Below are positions 10,676 through 26,100 of a stretch of 64,000 bases of DNA, piece after piece (positions within the stretch are counted from its first letter, which is position 1; each line of letters opens with the position of its first letter). Location: NCBI GenBank assembly GCA_964035545.1, contig OZ037765.1, positions 3,529,001-3,593,000 on the forward strand. The letters run 5' to 3'. Source of the stretch: Bugula neritina (lineage: Eukaryota > Bryozoa > Gymnolaemata > Cheilostomatida > Bugulidae). The notes under the pieces are model-generated. The model ran no database searches. It saw only the letters and a list, made by a program, of their open reading frames with translations, and was not told where the DNA came from. A program made the position numbers and the translations under genes.

Positions 10676-13600
10676 ATGGGGCAATGTACCTCTACACCTA
10701 AAAGTGAATCAAGTTAGTAAATAATCTAATTACAGATACTGCAGAATATGGAGCATTGCTAGTTGTATTGTATTATATTATATTATATAATAGTAAATTG
10801 TGTTTAGTATATTATAGTTATTATATTATACTTGTATTATATTGTATTGCATTGAATTATTTTGCTGCCCCTACTATATTATAATACAAACTCTGTTTGA
10901 CCACCATATTATAATTATTATGCTAACTTGTGTGTATATCACATGGGTTTATAGTCATCATTTCTGTGTAAGCCCCTGATGGAAAAGAACTTTTTAAGTT
11001 AGCTATGAACTTGTTTTTATTGTGGCAATGATTGGGTGCCCTTCCTAACATCCCCCTTTGGGTGTAGAACCACTGACCTTGTGGTTACTAAGCTATTGCT
11101 TTAACCATTAGACCACAGCTGTTCCCTTATACCACTATTACGTCTTATAAAAAACAGCAGTGTATTTAAATTAGATATAATCATTATTTATATGGTATTC
11201 TGCTTAAAAACTAGTTTGATAAACTGAATAAAACTTAGAAACGCATTTAGAATGTATCACAGAATTTTAATTTGTTCAACAGTATTTGTGAATATTTACA
11301 ATATAAAACTATGCTGTTTGCGTAACTTTTAGAGACGTATTACAATGCATGGTTCAACAGATCCAGTATAGATAGAGATGATGAATGGATGATGAATAAG
11401 ACTAAATCCTACACTATAGAAGAGATCAATGCTAAAAGTAGACATCATAAAGTTACTCATGCTATACTGAAGTATGACATTCCTCCAGATATTGGCACAC
11501 TGTTACCTCACCTCACCCATCTAAAGCTGTATGAAGTAGGCAGAATAGCTGATTGGGTCAGGTATGGTATTGTTATAAAGTTGTATTCATAGTGACCTAT
11601 TAGTTTGTAGTTAGTGTAGGGGTAACACTGCCCCTACCCGTACTAACATAAAATTGGGCTGCTGGATTTCAGGCACTCAAAATGCCGAATGAATATGGTA
11701 GCAATCCAATTGGCCAATTGATATTTAGCGAGCTCACTTTTCATGTTTCAATTTTCAATTTTCCAATTGCAACTTCACATTAGTAAGAGCACCTAGTGAT
11801 AATTTACAATTCAATACTTTTTATCAGGCAGTAAATTAATTGGCCACTTGAGTTTTGCCACGGCTGGCAATGTATTGTGCGTGGGTAATTCCTGCAGTGG
11901 GTTCCCCCTGGCATGTACTCGAGTTTCAAATTCGGAATTTCCCATTATGTGATTCCAAGCTTATAGTTAAAATATGAAGTAATCTCCCGTATAATAATAC
12001 TAGCTTTAGTAACAACTGTTATATGGGTTTATCTGACTTATAATTGCGTATCAATTTATAATTCAATCTAAAGTTAAGTAATCTCATTCAAGAGTAATAA
12101 TATGCAGTAGTTAAATTGAAATATAACTATGTTTTTTACAGCATATCTTCACTGAAGAATCTTGAGATATTGAATATATCATGGAACAACCTATCTGAAG
12201 GTCTACCAGACAATATGTTCACATCCTTACTATCCTTGAAAAGTTTGAGCATGGTGAACTGTAAACTGCCAACTCTACCCAACAGGTAAGGGTATAATCA
12301 CATATATATTATTTTAAAGTAGGGTTAGCTTAGACTTTACCAACATCACTATAAAATTTCATATAGCATAATTGTTATATTATAGTCAAAGTGTTCTAAG
12401 CAGTACATGTGTACTTATTATTAAGGTGGATGACAATTATCAAAACTTTGTCATCAGTAGAAGGGAATTTTATGTGATGTTCAATGACTTGTATGCTGTA
12501 TTGATATTTATACTGAAATATTTTACGGCATTTTATACCTGTGTGTTATGTTACAGCATAGCTTCACTCAAGAATCTTGAGGTATTGAATATATCAGGGA
12601 ATAGAATCTCTGGTTTACCTGACAATATACTCTCATCCTTACCATTACTGAAAGAGCTGTACATGTCAAACTGTGCACTAGTGACTCTACCAAACAGGTG
12701 TGTGTTGTATTGTATTATCGGTGATACTTTATTAAATAAAAATTATAATTATATCCTTAATACAGATTTGTTGTAGCTTGCAATATATTTGTATAGACTT
12801 GAAGTAATGTATGCTTTACACAACATTTGCATGTTGCATCAAAAATTATATTCATATAAACTAATATTATATACATAGTTTTATTTCTGTGTGTTATGTT
12901 ACAGCATGTCTTTACTGAAGAATCTTGAGGTATTGATCATGTCGGAGAATAGCTTTTCTGAAGGTCTGCCTGAAGATATATTCTCATCCTTACGGTCTTT
13001 AAGAGTGTTGTCCATGCGTTACTGCGATCTATCAACTCTACCAGACAGGTGTGTGTTATATATTTTAGAGTTGTCTGCACTTTAATGAGTCAACTTAACT
13101 TTTTATAAGAACACTACTCTAGTTCAACTAATATGGTTAGGGTATTCACTTTTAGGGTCATTGCTACAAGTAAGTGATGAGTCGTAAAGTTAATAAAAGT
13201 TGTAACATGAAACTCAGTAATAAATGTACTCAGAAAGTAATGTTACAATGAATTGCCATTTATTACTCTAATGAATTCATATCTTTAATAAACTAGTATC
13301 TAATAAATGCCAGTGCTTGACCAATAAAATCCAGTTCCACTATTACTACTGTGTTTGGCATTTTAGCACTTATAAGCTCCACAGTACTCAACATCTGGGA
13401 GATAACTCCTATTTTATACTATATGTTGCACATACATGCGCTGTAAGAGTGTAATGTAAGATATGATGGCATTTTATTATAATCTGTTTGTGTATGAAGC
13501 AGTGTTCAAGACAGCATATTCACATTTTATATTTGTTAGCATGCAGAGTCTACAGAAGTTAGAGAAATTGAAAATATCCTCAAATAACTTCACCAGTTTA

Positions 13601-16600
13601 CCACTTCCGGTGTACACATTGAGTAGTCTGCAGGAACTGGATATATCTGAGAATATTTATCTAACATCCTTTGATCCTAAGATATTACAGTTGACTCATC
13701 TCCATACACTGAATGCTGAAGGTTGCCTTGCTCTTATATCTCCTCCACCTGAAGTATATCAGAGAGGCATAGGTTCGGTTGAACAGTACTACACAGACTT
13801 GGCTGAAGGAGCTGGTAACAACCTGCCATTTGCTACCATAGCTGTGCTAGGTAATACCATGGCTGGAAAAACTAGCTTAATCAAAACATTACAAAATGCT
13901 GACAGAAAGCGAGTTCTGACCGACAGAAGTCCAGATGCTGTGAGAGATGAGACAACAAAGGTGTTTAATCTTGAAGAGGTTGAGGTAGATGGTACAGTAC
14001 TCCGTCTTATCGATTTTGGAGGTCAAGAAGTTTATCACATTACTTATCAACTGACATTGCGCCAAAATTGCCTACCCGTAATAGTAGTCAACATGGAACA
14101 GTATAGCAAAATTTCAAAAGAATCAACACACAGAGAAGCTGTTAGAAGATTAGCCTTTGATTACATGTCTCACCTCTACCTCGCCAACCCAACTCTGGGA
14201 GCACCAAAACTCATTTTTACCCACAAAGACAAGTTTCAAACTACAGAATTTCAAAAGCTTCGAAAAGTTTTCCTGGAAACTTCAAACCAGCTGTGTGAAC
14301 AAATTATTCGAGAAGAAAAAGCATTGGGTGGAGAATTTGCTCAAATTAAACATTTTAATAAATCAGTTAAAGAAGTCTTTCTTCATGGCGACATATACGA
14401 AGTAGGAAGCAATGATAAGTATGAAGTGTTCGACATAGTTAAAAACTCTCTCCTTCAAAGCAGTCAAAACTTTGTGAAACTTTTACCTCTGGTCTGGGAG
14501 GAAGTGAATGAAAAAGTTCTGTCATTTCAATCTGTGTACATCACCTTTGATGAGGTACTGAAAGAGGTACAAACGGAATTTCGACACATTGAGGCAAGCC
14601 AGCTGAACATAATCCTCACATACATGCATGACTGCGGCAAAGTCTTGTGGTATAAAGATATCGGCTCTCTTCGGCCATACATATTCCACAGGATTTCAGA
14701 AGTTACCAAACTTCTATGTGTCTTGTATCATCATGATTCTAACATATGGCAAAGTAGAGTTGATTTGTTTGAGCCATACCTTTCCAAGGATGGAACCCCT
14801 GTTGAAAAAGAAGACTTTGAGAGGTTTGTGAGTCACTTCACCAACACAGGTTTGATGCTGCAATGTCTTCTCACTCATCTGATTAAAAATGAAACATCAT
14901 TTGACGGTGTCAAAAATGAAGAGGTTGCGCTATGCTTGCTTCACACATTCCGTTTGTTATATGGTCCTTTACCTAGTGATTTCAAGGAACCTTGCTTTAT
15001 TGTTCCCCAGTTTGCTAACGATTTCTTCAATACTTCTTACTCATCCCCAAAAAACATGCTTCTTCAAGTTGAAGTGCAATTCAACGGCTTAACTCTACCG
15101 CAATACGTTTACCATCAAATGAATGTTGGCTTGTTAGAACTCTTTCCTGATGGGTTTGCTGTTGTTAAAGTAAAGAAAAATGGAGCAAATGTTTATCAAG
15201 ATGGAATCTACACACAGCTTGTGCATGACTGTAAATCTAGAAAAGTGTTACTCCACGTGTCATCTAATGCTGCTAACATCTACAGCATGTGGCAAAGACT
15301 CATCACAGTCATCAATAACATCCTTAGACATGTTCTGCAAACTTGGACAGCATGTAGACCTGTCACTACATGTTACTGCGCTCACTGCCTTCTGCTGGGA
15401 CTTCCTTGTCCAAAAAAGGTGCTCAATCCTCAGTGGTGTATCCGATCCTTGAAACATCCTACACCAAATATCAAGCTGTGTAATGGATCTTCAACAACTT
15501 TGTGCGATGACGAGGAGATGCCCAGTGCTTTTCTGCATCCATGTATGTGTAAATAAATTATTTCTTTGTATTTTGGCTCCTCAACTTTTATGATTTAAAT
15601 TATCAAATCTAAAAATATTTTATACATGGTAAATGACAGCGTTTTACTCACCAGGTGGCCCTCTGTCTACAGAAGAAGCTGATACAATTAAAGAATGTGT
15701 CAATAAGTTGAGGTCTGCTAAAGAACAGGCCACCTTGACTGCCTCTGGTAAGATCAGTTTCCTTATCATAAACTCGTAGCTGTTGGCAGCATATTTATAT
15801 GTAAACAACAGGAGACAAAGAGCCCAGGTGATCAGTTGGATACTCTACTCTTTTGCAGAAATTTACCATTTCAATTTATTTGTGTCTCTATTAACCAGAA
15901 CACTACAGGTCCAGAAAAATTAGTTTTCGCAAGTTCTTCTAGCCTACAGTCATCCTGATACTTAGTGACGAAATGCAGTACCATATAATATGTTATTTAT
16001 TTTTGAAGCACCCAGAGACAAGAGTCTGCACACTCAGACTATCTCGACCCCTTTTGAAGACGATAACATCAGTGAATGCTCTGATGTCGAAGAGGAAGGA
16101 TTTGCTGATTTCACTGAAGATGACCTTGAACCTTTTTTATTTAACATTGATGGTATGCAGCTGAAACCTACAGAAAATGAAAAAGTTAAACACCTGTTTC
16201 ACAGTCACCATAAGGTAAAACAAATGGATATCTTTTAACGCAATAAGCAATTTTTGGTAATGTTTTGGCTGATTATTTAATTTTGATTGACTTTCAAGTT
16301 AATTTTATTTACCAACTTTTAGTTAAAGAAATTTGAATAATTTACAGGTTTATAAGATGAGTGACCCTGTTAGAGGTCGTGCCATGATTATCAATAATGA
16401 AAGATTTTTTCTGGATGATGGGAGGGAGCTGACTAAGGCAACTCGACATGGTTCATACATCGACTATGTTAACATCAAAACTCTGCTAAAAGACATGGGA
16501 TTTGTTGTAGCCGGTGAAGATGAGCCTCTGTTTGACTTGAGTAAACAGGTTTCTGAATAAATTTTTTATTTCTTATGCAACAAAGGGTGCTAGCTTCAAG

Positions 16601-18656
16601 ATGTTTACACAAATCGCTAATGTATAATAATTAATTAATTTACAGTTTTTATTAGTATTTAGTTTGTTCAGCTATAACAAATTCTGGAGTTGTCACTAGT
16701 CAAATAGAAGATAACTGTATATTTGCATGAAACAAAGAAGCCCTACCGGTGTCAGTTGTTTTGTCTAATAATTCTGTCAGAAATCTTAGTTTCTGTTGGT
16801 TTTCGTTTCGGTTCCAAACTGCCAGTTGTACTTAACAGGCTGGCGTTAGTCTCTGTAATAGTGAAATTTTTAAGCTTTTCATTTGCTAAAATCAGTTGTT
16901 GTGCTTTGCTAAATACTTCATTTACTGCACAGTATCTTTTACAACCCAATATGTATATGTTGATTCAACAGGAAATCATGTCAGAAGTGAAAAAGGAGAC
17001 CACCCGCAAAGACCACCAGCACCTAGGCATGTTTATTCTAGTCATCATGTCACATGGAACCTCTGGAAACATTTTCTATGACAGAGATTGTAAACCTGTC
17101 TTCTTGTCGGAAGTTAGAGACTTGCTCTCAGCTAGCAAATTTCCTGCCATGAGAGGAAAACCCAAACTCATCATATTCCACGCTTGTTCTGGCAGTGAGT
17201 AACACAGATTCATGACTCATGTTACTAAAATTAGCAAATTAAGCTACATTGATCTATATAGCAATAACATCGGTTGTTGACTTCATAAAGTTAATATATT
17301 ATGTTATCTTATATTAGTCTTTTTAAAGTACTTGAATCAGTTAAACTACAATCAAATTTTCACACTAAATCAGAACATTTTTAGGCGTTTTGATTATCGA
17401 TATTATTGAATACAGAAGTAGGCTACACTTCATAATTATATTATTTCTTCTATTTCTAAGTTTGTTTTATAACTCTAAATTACTTAGTAGTGCTGCGTGA
17501 TCTTTTTTCTCATTGTGATTCCAGTCCTAAGTATTCTCATTATGCATCTTATAGCAGGGTCTGCTGTAGGTGATAAGATTTTCGATGAAAAAATCAGACA
17601 TTATTGTTGATCATGCAAGTAAAATGGTAGATATGAACTGTTGAAAATATTGCATTTTTACTTTATCTCACAGGTAGAGCTGACTCTGGTAATGTTATGC
17701 AGTCACAAAACCCTGTCAACTTCTCACCACCAACATCTCCAGCAGAAGCAGGGAGTGAGTCTTCTGTAAGTCAAACTGCGTCTTCAAACATTCCCTTTGA
17801 TAAATTCGCTCACTTGGACGCTGATGACTTCTACATTGTAAAGCCAAGCACAGAAAGTTAGTGTGAAATACATTATATATCTGAATAGACTCAACATCCT
17901 ATTTTAACTAAAACAGTTCACAATTTTTAATCAGTCAGACTTTAGGTATAACTGAAGCACTCACGTGTTACTAGTAACTCCGCCATGTGTTACAGCTTAC
18001 AAGGCTGGTAGAAATGAGAATTATGGTACCTGGTTTATCAGGATACTGGTGGCTACATTCTACAGACACAGCTGTCACAGGGATGTTAGTGAGCTGTTTA
18101 GAATAGTGAGTATTACTTGAAATCTGCGTTATTATACTTGATTAGCCATTATATGGCTGTGACAATTAATGCTAGGAAAATCCAGTGGTATTAAATAGCC
18201 AATATATAGTAAAGGTAGTTTTATAGGCACCAGAGAAACTATCAATTATAGAGTAACACATCATCTTTTGTGTATATAAAGTTAGTAACCTATTATTACA
18301 CAATCTTTTTGCCAGTTATTCTTTCAGTAACTTTAATAGAAAACCTTGTAGAATAACAAAAAATATTAAATACTTAAAAATTAATGTAGTAAATTTCATT
18401 ATTTATATTAATTACATGTAAATTGCTATATATTATTATGAAATACTGAGGAGTTAGTTTTATATTTTATTCGTTGTTTCCCAAATCTACCCTGCAGATA
18501 CAAGACAGAGTTAGAAGAGTCAGTATTGCTTATTGTAAGAAAACAGGAGACGAAACAGCTGGTGGGAATGTACCTAATTGTCAGGAATGTACTTTCACCC
18601 ACCTCAGAAAGCTTTTCTTTTTTCCAAAGTTTCATGGCAGACAACTCCCGCAGTGA
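10676..18656 (+). CDS. LRR-Roc-COR GTPase fused to a caspase (ROCO-caspase)
   Basis: Thirteen exons: 10676-10712, 11333-11561, 12142-12285, 12557-12697, 12905-13048, 13540-15542, 15655-15747, 16009-16214, 16348-16548, 16972-17194, 17674-17856, 17996-18105, 18498-18656. They join in frame to 1290 residues. The protein starts MGQCTS, a myristoylation-plus-palmitoylation motif. Leucine-rich repeats fill about 70-300. The Roc GTPase has P-loop GNTMAGKTS (336-344), DFGGQ (390-394) and THKD (459-462). A COR-like region and a Cys-rich segment run to about 900, then an acidic linker. Residues 1000-1290 are a caspase: YKM start, R1032, H1094 in SHGTSG, C1138 in HACSG, and p10 with R1207 and GTWFIR. 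Known biology: Roc-COR units are nucleotide-switched dimers and caspases cleave after Asp. Inference: one molecule senses, switches and cuts, probably at a membrane. Exon 1 is the least certain part. The fusion rests on phase-matched exons without an intervening stop or promoter. Confidence 0.85.
10740..11332 (+). other. intron 1 of the ROCO-caspase gene, holding a SINE
   Basis: AT-rich TATTATA-type simple sequence occupies 10760-10920 and a tRNA-derived SINE lies at 11020-11130. The intron is bounded by donor GTTAGT at 10713 and an acceptor ending at 11332. Confidence 0.5.
11020..11130 (-). mobile_element. tRNA-derived SINE fragment in intron 1
   Basis: Read on the minus strand: GGGAACAGCTGTGGTCTAAT (tRNA-like start with an A box), a B-box-like GTGGTTCTACACCC, then GGAAGGGCACCCAATCAT. 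The last motif is nearly identical to the tail of the SINE at 9930-10060, so both belong to one family. The B box is mutated and the acceptor stem cannot close, so it is not a tRNA gene. Confidence 0.7.
11562..12141 (+). other. intron 2 of the ROCO-caspase gene
   Basis: Starts with donor GTATGG and ends with TTTTTTACAG. There is no coding content and no recognised repeat. Confidence 0.6.
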
Positions 18657-20790: not shown

Positions 20791-21917
20791 ATGGTTAAAT
20801 CATTTCTCTGCGTGTTATTCAAGCAAGCCAGAAAGCATGCAACGTATGCAGTCAACAAAGCCTTTTCTGCAAAATATCTCCTGCTGACCAATGGCCTAGT
20901 ATCTGCTGGAATGTCTGGTTCAGCTGATAGTTTAGTACAGAAAGTATGCAGACGGCATAATTTAAACAAGTCCACACCATCCGAGACTAGCAAAGTGTGA
21001 GCATTTTGATGTTACCTTATGTTGTGCATTGCTAAAATATGCTAGCAAGGTTTGGCTGCTTCATATAATTCATCAATATAATGCCCACCTGATTTTCTTT
21101 TGCCATTTGTCCTTGGATAATATTTTGTGTTTTCCTAGGTGTTATTCCTACTTTGCTCCATGTATTATCATTCACTTAAAGGTGTTAGATTTAGTGAGGC
21201 AACATGTGAAAAGCAAACAAAATTTGACATGAATTTTTTACTTGACGGCCTAATACTTGATTAACTTGCATTTTTATATAAGGCTGAATTATTTTGTACA
21301 TTTTAAGTGTGCCCTATATCAAATAGATTCAGTTTTTAAGTAATGATTGCAAAATTTTCACTAAATTGAATCATTGCAAATTAAATTGAATTTTGTAAAT
21401 AATTGAATCAAAATTATACTGCTTATGACACTAAATATCATAACATTCTGCAGAAGTTTCTTTTAAAAAAAGTCAATAATGTTACTGGCAAAAATATCTA
21501 GTTTATCATTTTAGGTGCACATCAATCGACGGTGCTCGAGTATGTAGAATGACTGTAACTGGCATGGTATTGGGAGTTATCGCACACCACTGGTATATAT
21601 TCTTAGACAAGCGATACACAGGAACAACCCTGCGTATGGTCATGAAGAAGACCTTGATAGATCAAATAGTCTTAGGTCCAATATGCCTACTAACATTCTT
21701 GGGTCTTTTATCTATTCTGGAAGGATCCTATTACAAAGGGTTTAAATCCGAGTTGTACAAAAAGGGGCCAGAAATGGTGGCCGTAGACTGGCTTGTGTAT
21801 CCACCCGCCCAATTTATTAACTTCAAGTTTCTACCTTCTAGATTCCGAGTCCTGTACGATTGTTGCATAGCCTTCGCTCTTGACATCTATTATTCTCATA
21901 TCAAATATGAGAGGTAG
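20791..21917 (+). CDS. MPV17L2-like inner-membrane protein (2 coding exons seen)
   Basis: Exons 20791-20996 and 21515-21917 join through a phase-2 intron to 202 residues, close to the usual Mpv17/PMP22 family length. Recognisable family blocks in order: KYLLLTN...SGSADSLVQK (exon 1), DGARVCRMTVTGMVLGVIAH with HHWYIFLDKRY, DQIVLGP, then the C-terminal signature ADW-like VDWLVYPPAQFINFKFLP and FRVLYD...YYSHIKYE. The pattern fits MPV17L2 better than MPV17 or PXMP2. The basic, Asp- and Glu-free N-terminus would serve as a mitochondrial targeting segment. In vertebrates MPV17L2 is linked to mitochondrial ribosome assembly; that function is borrowed from the family. A splice acceptor ends at 20774 and the frame stays open between it and the ATG, so an upstream exon could extend the N-terminus. 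Confidence 0.85.
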
Positions 21918-23112: not shown

Positions 23113-26100
23113 TCAAGAGTCACTGGGCGAAAAGGTATTATGGTTATCTACAGTCAATGAAGGTCCCGTGTAAAATTTGGCACTGTTAACTAATCCATTG
23201 CCCAAAGTAATGGGCTTGAAATCTGATGAGAAATCTACAAAATAAAAGAAATTATAAACAAACCTTCACCAATGTCAAGGACACATGATAGTGCAAACAT
23301 ACCAAAGTTAATTGAATAAATGTGTTGGCTAAATCATGATGTAACTAAACATGTTCACATTAAAACATGAATGGTACCCCTTGCTATGCATAGCTAAACT
23401 TTTCACAGTATATTATGTTTGGACCTTCATATGTGACAAATTACTGTCTAGTCGTGAATTGTAATCAGTAACATGGGTATCGTGTGCACACTACTCAACA
23501 CTTATAATATTATAATAAATTATTATATATATCAGGAGTGAATGAATTCATTGCACAGCATTATTTCTTTAAAATTGTAAAACTCATCACGCTTACGAAA
23601 ATACTTTCTAAACACAAAATTAGCGAAGAAAACTTATGAAGTATATTTCCAATCTCTATAAAAACAGGATTTTGTTGCTGATAGACATACAACATACAAA
23701 ACTTGCAATTTTTCACTTAAACTCTTCAAAGCAGCTAATTTCAACAGAGTTCAATCTACCAACATCATATAAATATCATCAGGTGGTGAGACAGCTAACC
23801 TGTAGCACCTTTATAGCCATCATTACCACCAGCACCCTCGTCATTGACACCACCACTGTCTTGTGATATAAAGTCTATGCCGTTAGGAATCTGAAAGATC
23901 TTGGAGGAGTTGGTGGAGGATTGCTGCTGTAGCTGTGCCACCAGCTCCAGCGCTTCTGAAAGCATAAAACATACAGACTACATAGCCTCTGAGCATTAAA
24001 AAAAGAGGAAGAATATTTTGGTATGCAGAAGTAAAACCTGCGCTAAAAATAATAATAATTCAAATAAACTATTTTCTTACATCGTCACAACTAAATACTC
24101 GTTTAGCCTCAAGACTTACCAGGAGCCACAATGGACATGGGAGGGGAGTTGTTATTGCTGGCAGACGCACTGGTGGTCATAGGGCTAGTTGTAGCCTGAG
24201 GACTGCCCGACATGGAGGTGCAGCTGGTGGGCGTAGCCGTCTCTTTGGTTGGCTCATCTGAAAGAACACAGTACAAACATCTGATCTCCCTCTACTTGAC
24301 AAACCTGACTGCTCTATTGATATTCCTTTGAAATTGTAAAACATATCTTAGCCTTATTCTCTACAGTATAGCCTGTGCTATCAAGTAAAGAGAGCCATTG
24401 CAATGGAATCTTAAAGCTAACATACACAAAATCTTTAATCCACAATACAGCCTGTGCTACCAAATGAAGTGAGACAATAGAATGGAATATTGGAGAGTTA
24501 CAAATCCTTTACTCTACAATAGACTCTTTCTATACTAATATAACCACATGTATTACATTGTGTTGCGTTGCGGTGGAGATGAACACCTACCTGACTCGTA
24601 GGTGAAAGGTACAGGTTCACTGACACCCCCGCTAGCCATCACTATCACCTGAGCAGTGACAGGGGAGGATAATGCAGACGTCACCTTGTAGGGAGGAACA
24701 GTGCAGATGAAGTGCGTCTGCAAAGAAGAGACAAAGCGTAACTAGCAGAGTTCATCAATATTTTATACATGGCCAGTGTAAATCAGCTGATAGCCTTGCA
24801 GCTAACAGTACGTAGTTGTTGATCACTAGAAATTGTGTGCTTTAATAACAGACGAGAAATAGAGAGAAAGCTCTACGAAGTATGTGTTATTAGATACACA
24901 TATAATCAATGATAGAAACATTGAACCATAACTCCCATTCAGTTTATTGGATAGAAACACCACATAAAGTCATACACTCTAGAGTCTAGTCTCTCAATGA
25001 CAACATATAATATAGACTCCCCCTCCCCGAAAAGGATGTCAAGCTTGTTGGGTTTTAGGCCCATGCACGAGCTAAACAAAAAAACCTAACTTGAAAATTG
25101 ACTGTAAATTAATACAGAATTCATTCAATACACATTTTTATAAACACAACTCATTTACGGGAGGGGTACATAATCTACGTATGCCAAAACTCACCGTATG
25201 TGTGAACTCGTGCTCTATTTCCGCCTCTTGCTCCCATAAGACAACATCCGACTCATCTAACACTTCCTGGAACTTGACCCGGAAACCCTTCACAAAGTTC
25301 TTGCCGATAACAAACAGCGACTGGCCACCGGAGAGGGGAGACTTTTCCAGAGACATTCGACAGACTTCTGGTTGTCCAGCCGGCTGAGCTACAGTCATGA
25401 TAAGATAACTCCTTGCATAGGATACCAAATAGTAATATATATTCAAACTATACCCCGTTACCCGCAGGATTAAAACGTTAAGGTGAGAAGCTGTATCCAG
25501 ATTATAAAATATTACTAGGTGCTGGTTGCTACAGTATATCAAATAAATAACATGGCTGGAAATTTTTGAGAAATAGAATGAAATATAGTTTTACAAAAAT
25601 ATATATAACCAGTTATCTACCAGGTAAAGATTCCCTTCAAGCTGGGAAGAATAATCTAATAAAATCACCACTGCAAAGAAATTGACAAAATACAAGAAAA
25701 CCATTAGAGAGAGACTCGGTATTTCAGGAGGTGACAAATCTAGATTTCAGATGCCATCATAAAATCTATAAGTCAACAGTTGAAGGTTACTAGAAGCCTT
25801 GTGGCCTACTTACTACACGCTATGACTGTGGAGGCCGTCTGCAGTGTGATGTGAGTGCCTGAGGCTAAGCAGAGGTTTACTCTGCATATCAGTCGGCACT
25901 TTGTACTCTTCTTCTTGTTCTTCACCAGACCTATTCGCTTCTCCACGTCCGTGTTCCGCAACTTGAGTATACCGATGCAGTCGATACTACAATGCCACAC
26001 AGTACAAGTATAGAAATGACACTACAATACCACACAGTTCAAGTTTAGAAATGATACAATACTACACAGTATAACACTAGGCAGGTGGTCTGGTTGTATG

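Follow-up and report, generated by a model that had tools for sequence, protein, structure and literature searches.

The stretch analyzed here comprises 64,000 nucleotides of the cheilostome bryozoan Bugula neritina (assembly GCA_964035545.1, contig OZ037765.1, positions 3,529,001 to 3,593,000). It is referred to below as the window, and very probably corresponds to chromosome 1 (C1) 3529001-3593000. Between positions 10676 and 18656 it holds a gene predicted to join a ROCO GTPase to a caspase. We rebuilt this predicted gene from the exon sequences and introns of the interval. All introns of the 13 exons are GT-AG, their phases are compatible, and together the exons encode 1290 amino acids with zero internal stops. 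The predicted protein contains, in order, leucine-rich repeats (LRRs), a Roc GTPase domain, a COR region, an acidic linker, and a caspase. A first-pass annotation had proposed 13 phase-compatible exons that encode LRRs, Roc, a COR-like region, and a full caspase. The GT-AG joins and the open frame bear out the exon structure, as do Pfam matches, motifs, and profile alignment for the domains. The gene is laid out as follows, in window coordinates.

10676..10712, plus strand: exon 1 (37 bp), encoding MGQCTSTPKSES
11333..11561, plus strand: exon 2, N-terminal segment preceding the LRRs
12142..12285, plus strand: exon 3, LRR cassette (144 bp, two LRRs, phase 2-2)
12557..12697, plus strand: exon 4, LRR cassette (141 bp)
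12905..13048, plus strand: exon 5, LRR cassette (144 bp)
13540..15542, plus strand: exon 6, last LRRs, Roc GTPase, COR, and a Cys-bearing C-terminal tail (667 complete codons)
13850..13876, plus strand: P-loop GNTMAGKTS (amino acid 336)
14012..14026, plus strand: switch II DFGGQ (amino acid 390)
14219..14230, plus strand: G4-type motif THKD (amino acid 459)
14486..15394, plus strand: COR region, limits approximate (best COR-A stretch from amino acid 548, and profile alignment to LRR-Roc-COR proteins)
15655..15747, plus strand: exon 7, linker (93 bp, without Met)
16009..16214, plus strand: exon 8, acidic linker with SDVEEEGFADF (acceptor unsure)
16348..16548, plus strand: exon 9, N-terminal part of the caspase large subunit
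16972..17194, plus strand: exon 10, caspase large subunit (catalytic His 17053-17055, Cys 17185-17187)
17674..17856, plus strand: exon 11, inter-subunit linker and start of the small subunit (DADDFYIVKPSTE)
17996..18105, plus strand: exon 12, small subunit (S1-pocket arginine 18010-18012; GTWF)
18498..18656, plus strand: exon 13, end of the small subunit and stop codon (18654-18656)

Exon 1, whose donor is GTTAGT, is among the weakest parts of the model. Its MG start resembles an acylation signal, which we take to be a possible start for N-myristoylation or palmitoylation. Two relatives from another bryozoan, Watersipora subatra (P0031 and P0092), start likewise, with MGAKSS and MGCSLS. Counterparts of exon 2 with 58-61% identity are present in the paralogous B. 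neritina loci L024, L038, and L040.

Domains of the predicted protein

In Pfam searches, the 1290-amino acid protein matches LRR_8 at 66.3 bits (cut-off 27) and Roc at 29.9 bits (cut-off 27), with the nucleotide-binding motifs GNTMAGKTS, DFGGQ, and THKD present. The first-pass annotation had suggested a domain search for Roc, COR, and Peptidase_C14. Roc and Peptidase_C14 pass, whereas COR-A alone reaches 17.1 bits, under its cut-off of 35.3, and COR is recognized through profile comparison. In hhalign, an alignment built from 19 exon-6 relatives matched 11 LRR-Roc-COR proteins, which are bacterial or from unnamed metagenomes, across 503 columns extending beyond COR (probability 100, E 2.2e-41). 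Furthermore, COR-A exceeds the Pfam cut-off in sister loci (e.g., C7:7684775 and C1:33011727) that themselves have downstream caspase matches, and COR-B exceeds its cut-off in the relative P0035 (28.4; cut-off 27). By its Roc and COR matches, the predicted protein is assigned to the LRR-Roc-COR (ROCO) family. Judged by the protein kinase domain, it falls outside the LRRK and DAPK groups, as no kinase is among the 19 Pfam families that match it at E up to 1. The same 19 families include neither NACHT nor NB-ARC, and no CARD, DED, or death domain.

The caspase is the strongest of these matches (Peptidase_C14, 96.9 bits; cut-off 21.4), spanning amino acids 1008-1270 and profile positions 1-227 of 233. 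Large- and small-subunit regions are present in order, and caspase-6 chains align to residues 5-289 of a 296-amino acid query. SHG (amino acid 1093) and HACSG (amino acid 1136) align with SHG and QACRG of caspase-3, which identifies the catalytic His/Cys dyad. In caspases, the S1 pocket for Asp is formed by two Arg and the Gln of QACxG. Both S1 arginines align with those of caspase-3, where the small-subunit stretch is a weak second match. The dyad is kept in all 18 loci with a complete exon 10. From the conserved dyad and the caspase-3 alignment, we predict an active protease.

The gene family in two bryozoans

The window gene is not alone, and the gene models place it in a large family found in at least two cheilostome bryozoans. 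We searched the B. neritina genome (215.85 Mb, 295 contigs) with the exon-6 protein and obtained 66 scored matches, including itself, from 142 first-look candidates. The 65 further matches have 61-81% identity, and 64 of the 66 are stop-free. A caspase search, in which 150 of 295 candidates were scored, gave at least 176 matches, and the neighbor counts that follow use the 150 caspase matches listed. Among these, a same-strand caspase lies within 10 kb downstream of 52 of the 66 ROCO exons and upstream of one. Three of the 14 ROCO exons without a listed caspase were fetched (L025, L031, and L034), and all three have caspase exons. Among the matches listed, 21 of 23 COR-A matches have a caspase within 6 kb downstream, with 0 upstream, and merging all ROCO anchors yields 92 loci, 76 of which have a same-strand caspase within 8 kb downstream.

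All 20 of the 10-kb loci that we fetched contain downstream caspase exons; with one further locus on C6, this holds for 21 of 21 loci read closely. Within the fetched stretch, L034 shows exons 7-9 alone, and L027 and L033 show exons 9 and 10 alone, while L041 gave no good counterpart of exons 7, 8, 11, or 13 when exons were used as queries. The caspases of the 20 loci fall into two types: type A, that of the window gene, in 13 loci, and type B in 7. The family is clustered on C1 and C6. Among type A loci, the mean synonymous divergence (dS) is 0.14-0.24 in exons 10, 11, and 13, 0.32 in exon 6, and about 0.54 in exons 8 and 9; the low values at the caspase end suggest gene conversion.

Sixty of the 150 listed caspase matches are tied to no ROCO anchor. 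These include a minus-strand caspase cluster at C1:3616480-3637353, 23-44 kb downstream of the window, which perhaps represents free caspases or further fusions. On small unplaced contigs such as C58, C90, and C99, the Roc profile matches Ras-like GTPases, many of them interrupted by in-frame stops. These possibly derive from another eukaryote in the assembly and were set aside from the ROCO counts.

The first-pass annotation had also suggested looking for the same architecture in related genomes, and fused proteins do occur in W. subatra. A profile search returned a 1386-amino acid W. subatra protein, named MFHAS1-like, with 99% query coverage, 35% identity, and the caspase domain PF00656. 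Searching with the Roc-to-caspase part of that protein returned 20 proteins, all from W. subatra, of which 13 carry PF00656; several are annotated as MFHAS1-like or as an MFHAS1 homolog. The acidic linker pattern is present in 17 of the 20 models, for example as SDVEEEGYCD in P0031 compared with SDVEEEGFADF in the window. The linker of P0091 escaped the pattern, and its sequence holds the variant SDISDVDEEGYCAE. Passages of PMC12902671 describe the Ensembl annotation of W. subatra as made chiefly from transcript alignments; the models used here are those of NCBI.

Variable LRR cassettes and caspase types

We find 42 LRR cassettes of 144 bp in 17 of the 20 loci, and all of their proteins are different. 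At the eight exposed strand positions of the LxLxxN type, the ratio of nonsynonymous to synonymous change (dN/dS) is 2.42 (bootstrap over loci, 1.68-4.20), although these positions, which follow the LRR motif, were fixed after the per-column variability had been seen. The remaining 39 cassette positions have a dN/dS of 0.66 (0.50-1.03). None of 299 random eight-column sets reached the observed dN, in a control run on every second cassette. LRR-like frames in L021 (2361) and L039 (2997) were among an initial 43 cassettes but were judged spurious, and a stricter rule that left them out gave the 42. Cassette number also differs, being 3, 4, 2, and 2 in the four loci with exon 2 in view (one non-LRR frame in L024 uncounted).

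Estimates of dN/dS, made mostly from type A loci only and after dropping pairs with dS ≤0.02, are 0.16 for Roc and, among type A loci, 0.23 for exon 6, 0.18 for exon 9, 0.22 for exon 10, and 0.09 for exon 13 (35 of 55 pairs kept). Thus, from substitution patterns, we show diversifying change at exposed LRR positions together with a conserved switch and protease.

The two caspase types may be old. In a caspase tree of 30 rows, from which too-short caspases were left out, a single split separates type A from type B (support 94/93, just under the level that earns a branch a star, with a warning for long branches). On the type B side are W. subatra P0098, P0099, and P0102; the nine remaining W. 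subatra rows join type A. In a Roc-COR tree of 40 rows, by contrast, Bugula forms one clade (100/100) in which types A and B are intermixed, a grouping that partly reflects selection, because the 20 Bugula rows were chosen by Roc-COR likeness to the window gene. On the Roc-COR DNA tree, the type label switches four times, compared with a mean of 6.0 after shuffling (34 of 500 shuffles gave a count this low), and the starred branches force two changes. These trees suggest that the two caspase types may predate the Bugula/Watersipora split and may have been re-joined to Roc-COR modules.

A candidate death-switch receptor

We propose that this large gene family encodes bryozoan death-switch receptors built as single chains, each with an LRR sensor, a Roc-COR switch, an acidic linker, and a caspase effector, a reading to which we assign a probability of roughly 0.7. 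Architecture, selection, splice sites, catalytic residues, expansion, LRR diversification, and effector types are drawn from sequence, and we infer the steps that connect them. The LRRs would bind variable ligands, whether microbial, symbiont, or allogeneic. Binding would shift Roc-COR to another nucleotide and oligomeric state, perhaps with the protein placed at a membrane by an acylated N-terminus, and this change would pair two caspase domains. The paired caspases would cleave themselves at linker aspartates and then cut downstream substrates, leading to an inflammatory signal or to death of the cell. Inflammasomes and the PIDDosome use an adaptor step (CARD or death domain), which would be bypassed here. 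The first-pass annotation had likewise envisaged a nucleotide-gated dimer coupled to proteolysis. In the bacterial ROCO protein CtRoco, the nucleotide-free form is dimeric and GTP produces the monomer, as stated in passages of PMC11052575. By analogy, gating may run in either direction, and activation may follow GTP hydrolysis or nucleotide loss instead of GTP binding.

Several observations weigh against this receptor reading, as does the late fixing of the exposed LRR positions. An AlphaFold model of exon 6 made with 5 sequences was poor (mean predicted local distance difference test score 52, predicted template modeling score 0.40) and was left unused. Others lie at the junction between ROCO and caspase or, as described further below, in the caspase itself. 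The large open frame of exon 6 stays open for some 4 to 30 codons beyond its own donor; exon 8 contains a shared Met (GMQLKP or GMKLKP) and, in 7 of 13 type A loci, another Met among its first five codons, from which a free caspase could start; and in one of the 20 W. subatra models, P0108, the family sequence breaks off where the ROCO exon ends. This is what would be expected of two adjacent genes, a ROCO that ends after exon 6 and a caspase that begins in exons 7-9, an arrangement that we consider very improbable. The exon-6 donor is GTATGT, GTACGT, or GTGAGT in all 20 loci, while the open frame beyond it varies in length and sequence and is near-identical solely in close pairs. Exon 7 and the start of exon 8 encode no known domain, and the window gene has no Met in this stretch before GMQLKP. 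Exon 7 is 30 codons long and lacks Met in all ten loci where it was read, yet it evolves as coding sequence under purifying selection (dN/dS 0.26 among 10 type A sequences). Selection on these amino acids implies that translation arrives from the ROCO side. Exon 8 upstream of the shared Met has a dN/dS of 0.43 (13 type A sequences, about 46 codons).

Splice sites point the same way as exon 7 selection. We projected the window's sites through nucleotide alignments that do not presuppose phase, whereas an earlier phase-keeping search had phase agreement built in. The sites fall on AG and GT in 9 of 9 type A paralogues for exon 7, 12 of 12 for exon 9, and 10 of 10 for each of exons 10-12, and wherever exons 7 and 9-12 differ in length between paralogues, they do so by whole multiples of three. 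Of 12 type A paralogues, all give the exon-8 donor and 11 keep the exon-8 length in step, but the acceptor AG is found in 3. With its early Met codons and this unsure acceptor, exon 8 leaves exon 7 alone to carry the linker argument cleanly. Type B loci possess counterparts of exons 7 and 8. A chance fusion is also unlikely, because every fetched paralogous locus has downstream caspase exons and a second species has fused proteins. The first-pass annotation had named transcripts that end after exon 6 as a sign of two genes; P0108 is a model of that kind, but the lone case among 20. Its one-gene prediction is supported by exon 7 selection, splice-site conservation, and the fused W. subatra models, and on these same grounds we rejected two genes as the principal explanation.

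The caspase domain could instead be mostly a pseudo-protease scaffold or decoy, in the manner of c-FLIP, which we regard as improbable. In the window gene, His replaces the Gln of QACxG (HACSG); paralogues L036 and L037 have Gln. The S1 arginine, assigned in type B loci by position relative to a conserved Gly, is absent in three of the five type B loci with exon 12 (L038, L039, and L040, which read SKSH, SKSH, and AKVH), so some members may be inactive or of different specificity. L032 has an in-frame stop in exon 12, within the small subunit, in a locus that is otherwise open; it is either a pseudogene or a null allele. The Pfam caspase domain is missing from 7 of the 20 W. subatra models. 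Of these, P0101, P0103, P0105, and P0106 retain the acidic linker but stop within a few residues of it, P0104 ends soon past the caspase start, P0107 ends before the linker motif, and P0108 is the model that breaks off with the ROCO exon. P0100 also ends soon past the caspase start. It is possible that the caspase-less models are truncated, or that they are isoforms without the caspase, possibly produced by intron retention. Set against these cases, the invariant dyad of the B. neritina loci has its counterpart in W. subatra, where 12 of 20 models hold both catalytic motifs. The S1 arginine is kept in all 11 type A loci with exon 12, and also in L022 and L023, and exons 9 and 10 have the low dN/dS given above.

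A single fused gene might also act mainly as a developmental or apoptotic regulator, in a family that grew by tandem duplication and has no recognition role. The clusters on C1 and C6 and the low dS of exons 10, 11, and 13 fit duplication with gene conversion, and we give this alternative a minor, though real, chance. However, the exposed LRR strands diversify while Roc is conserved, cassette number differs between loci, and the two effector types occur intermixed across Roc-COR modules. Such a combination is not expected from duplication alone.

The death-switch reading can be extended to the whole intracellular repertoire. Genome matches at E ≤0.001, from searches run exon by exon that can miss split domains, number 1 for NACHT, 4 for CARD, 11 for death domains, and 3 for gasdermin. 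A single NACHT match and four CARD matches leave room for a receptor role of ROCO-caspases. Given one NACHT match against 92 or more ROCO loci, the majority with a caspase, together with diversifying LRRs and apparently exchangeable caspases, we tentatively raise the idea that cheilostome bryozoans use ROCO-caspases as their main repertoire of variable intracellular receptors, in the place of NLR inflammasomes. Each protein would combine sensor, switch, and executioner, possibly for allorecognition between colonies or symbiont control in addition to defense; we rate the chances of this idea at somewhat below even. Dozens of genes with fast-changing recognition surfaces suggest that self-contained immune or self/non-self receptors form a large family that has attracted little notice.

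NLR inflammasomes, the apoptosome, and the PIDDosome couple recognition through an NTPase switch to caspase activation by proximity. ROCO-caspases would share this NTPase-switch logic, but have no NACHT, NB-ARC, CARD, or death domain, and hold the caspase in the same chain. MFHAS1-type and bacterial Roco proteins have the same order of LRR, Roc, and COR, as reflected in the 503-column profile match. The Bugula protein differs in the caspase that follows COR; MFHAS1 is not known to have a caspase-like effector. A review of Roco proteins (PMC6337361) recognizes three groups (LRR-Roc-COR, kinase-bearing, and DAPK1), and the word "caspase" is absent from its main text.

The first-pass annotation knew of no characterized animal ROCO with a caspase. 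Among the matches listed from open-licence PubMed Central literature, we likewise found no description of a ROCO-caspase, but the fusion of a sensor to a caspase does have a precedent in amphioxus, where passages of PMC2575513 already predict direct LRR-caspase and TNFR-caspase fusions. As in Bugula, these join a recognition domain to a QACxG caspase, and they were proposed to link recognition directly to apoptosis (PMC2575513). The term "GTPase" has 0 occurrences in the main text of that paper, whereas the Bugula proteins have Roc-COR in between and form a large family. In brown algae, ROCO candidate immune receptors also have LRRs on separate exons, exon shuffling, and diversifying selection, as passages of PMC11378527 report. 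These receptors stay LRR-ROC-COR, whereas the Bugula cassette contains two LRRs and a protease is attached. The amphioxus LRRs-caspase genes and the brown algal LRR-ROCO receptors are the nearest precedents that we found, going by the passages cited. Actiniarian and Aplysia ROCO proteins likewise join Roc-COR to innate-immunity domains in invertebrates, but the partners named in passages of PMC5094078 and PMC9334734 are TIR, death domain, kinase, and others, with no caspase.

How the nucleotide state of ROCO proteins is coupled to output is disputed, and a ROCO with a caspase output would offer a proteolysis readout independent of a kinase. If the receptor reading is true, an animal lineage has assembled a single-protein equivalent of the inflammasome out of different components, and Bryozoa, a phylum of colonial animals that harbor symbionts, would gain a candidate recognition system.

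Three further observations concern other genes. On the minus strand of the window, 25141-25590 is an open frame with a Rel homology dimerization domain (36.4 bits; cut-off 28.3), and by this match is part of a predicted NF-kB/Rel-like gene near the ROCO-caspase. On the plus strand, 21480-21914 is an open frame with an Mpv17/PMP22 domain (56.9 bits). A 1011-amino acid protein of the insect Anabrus simplex (P0005) reads as three tandem caspase-like domains.

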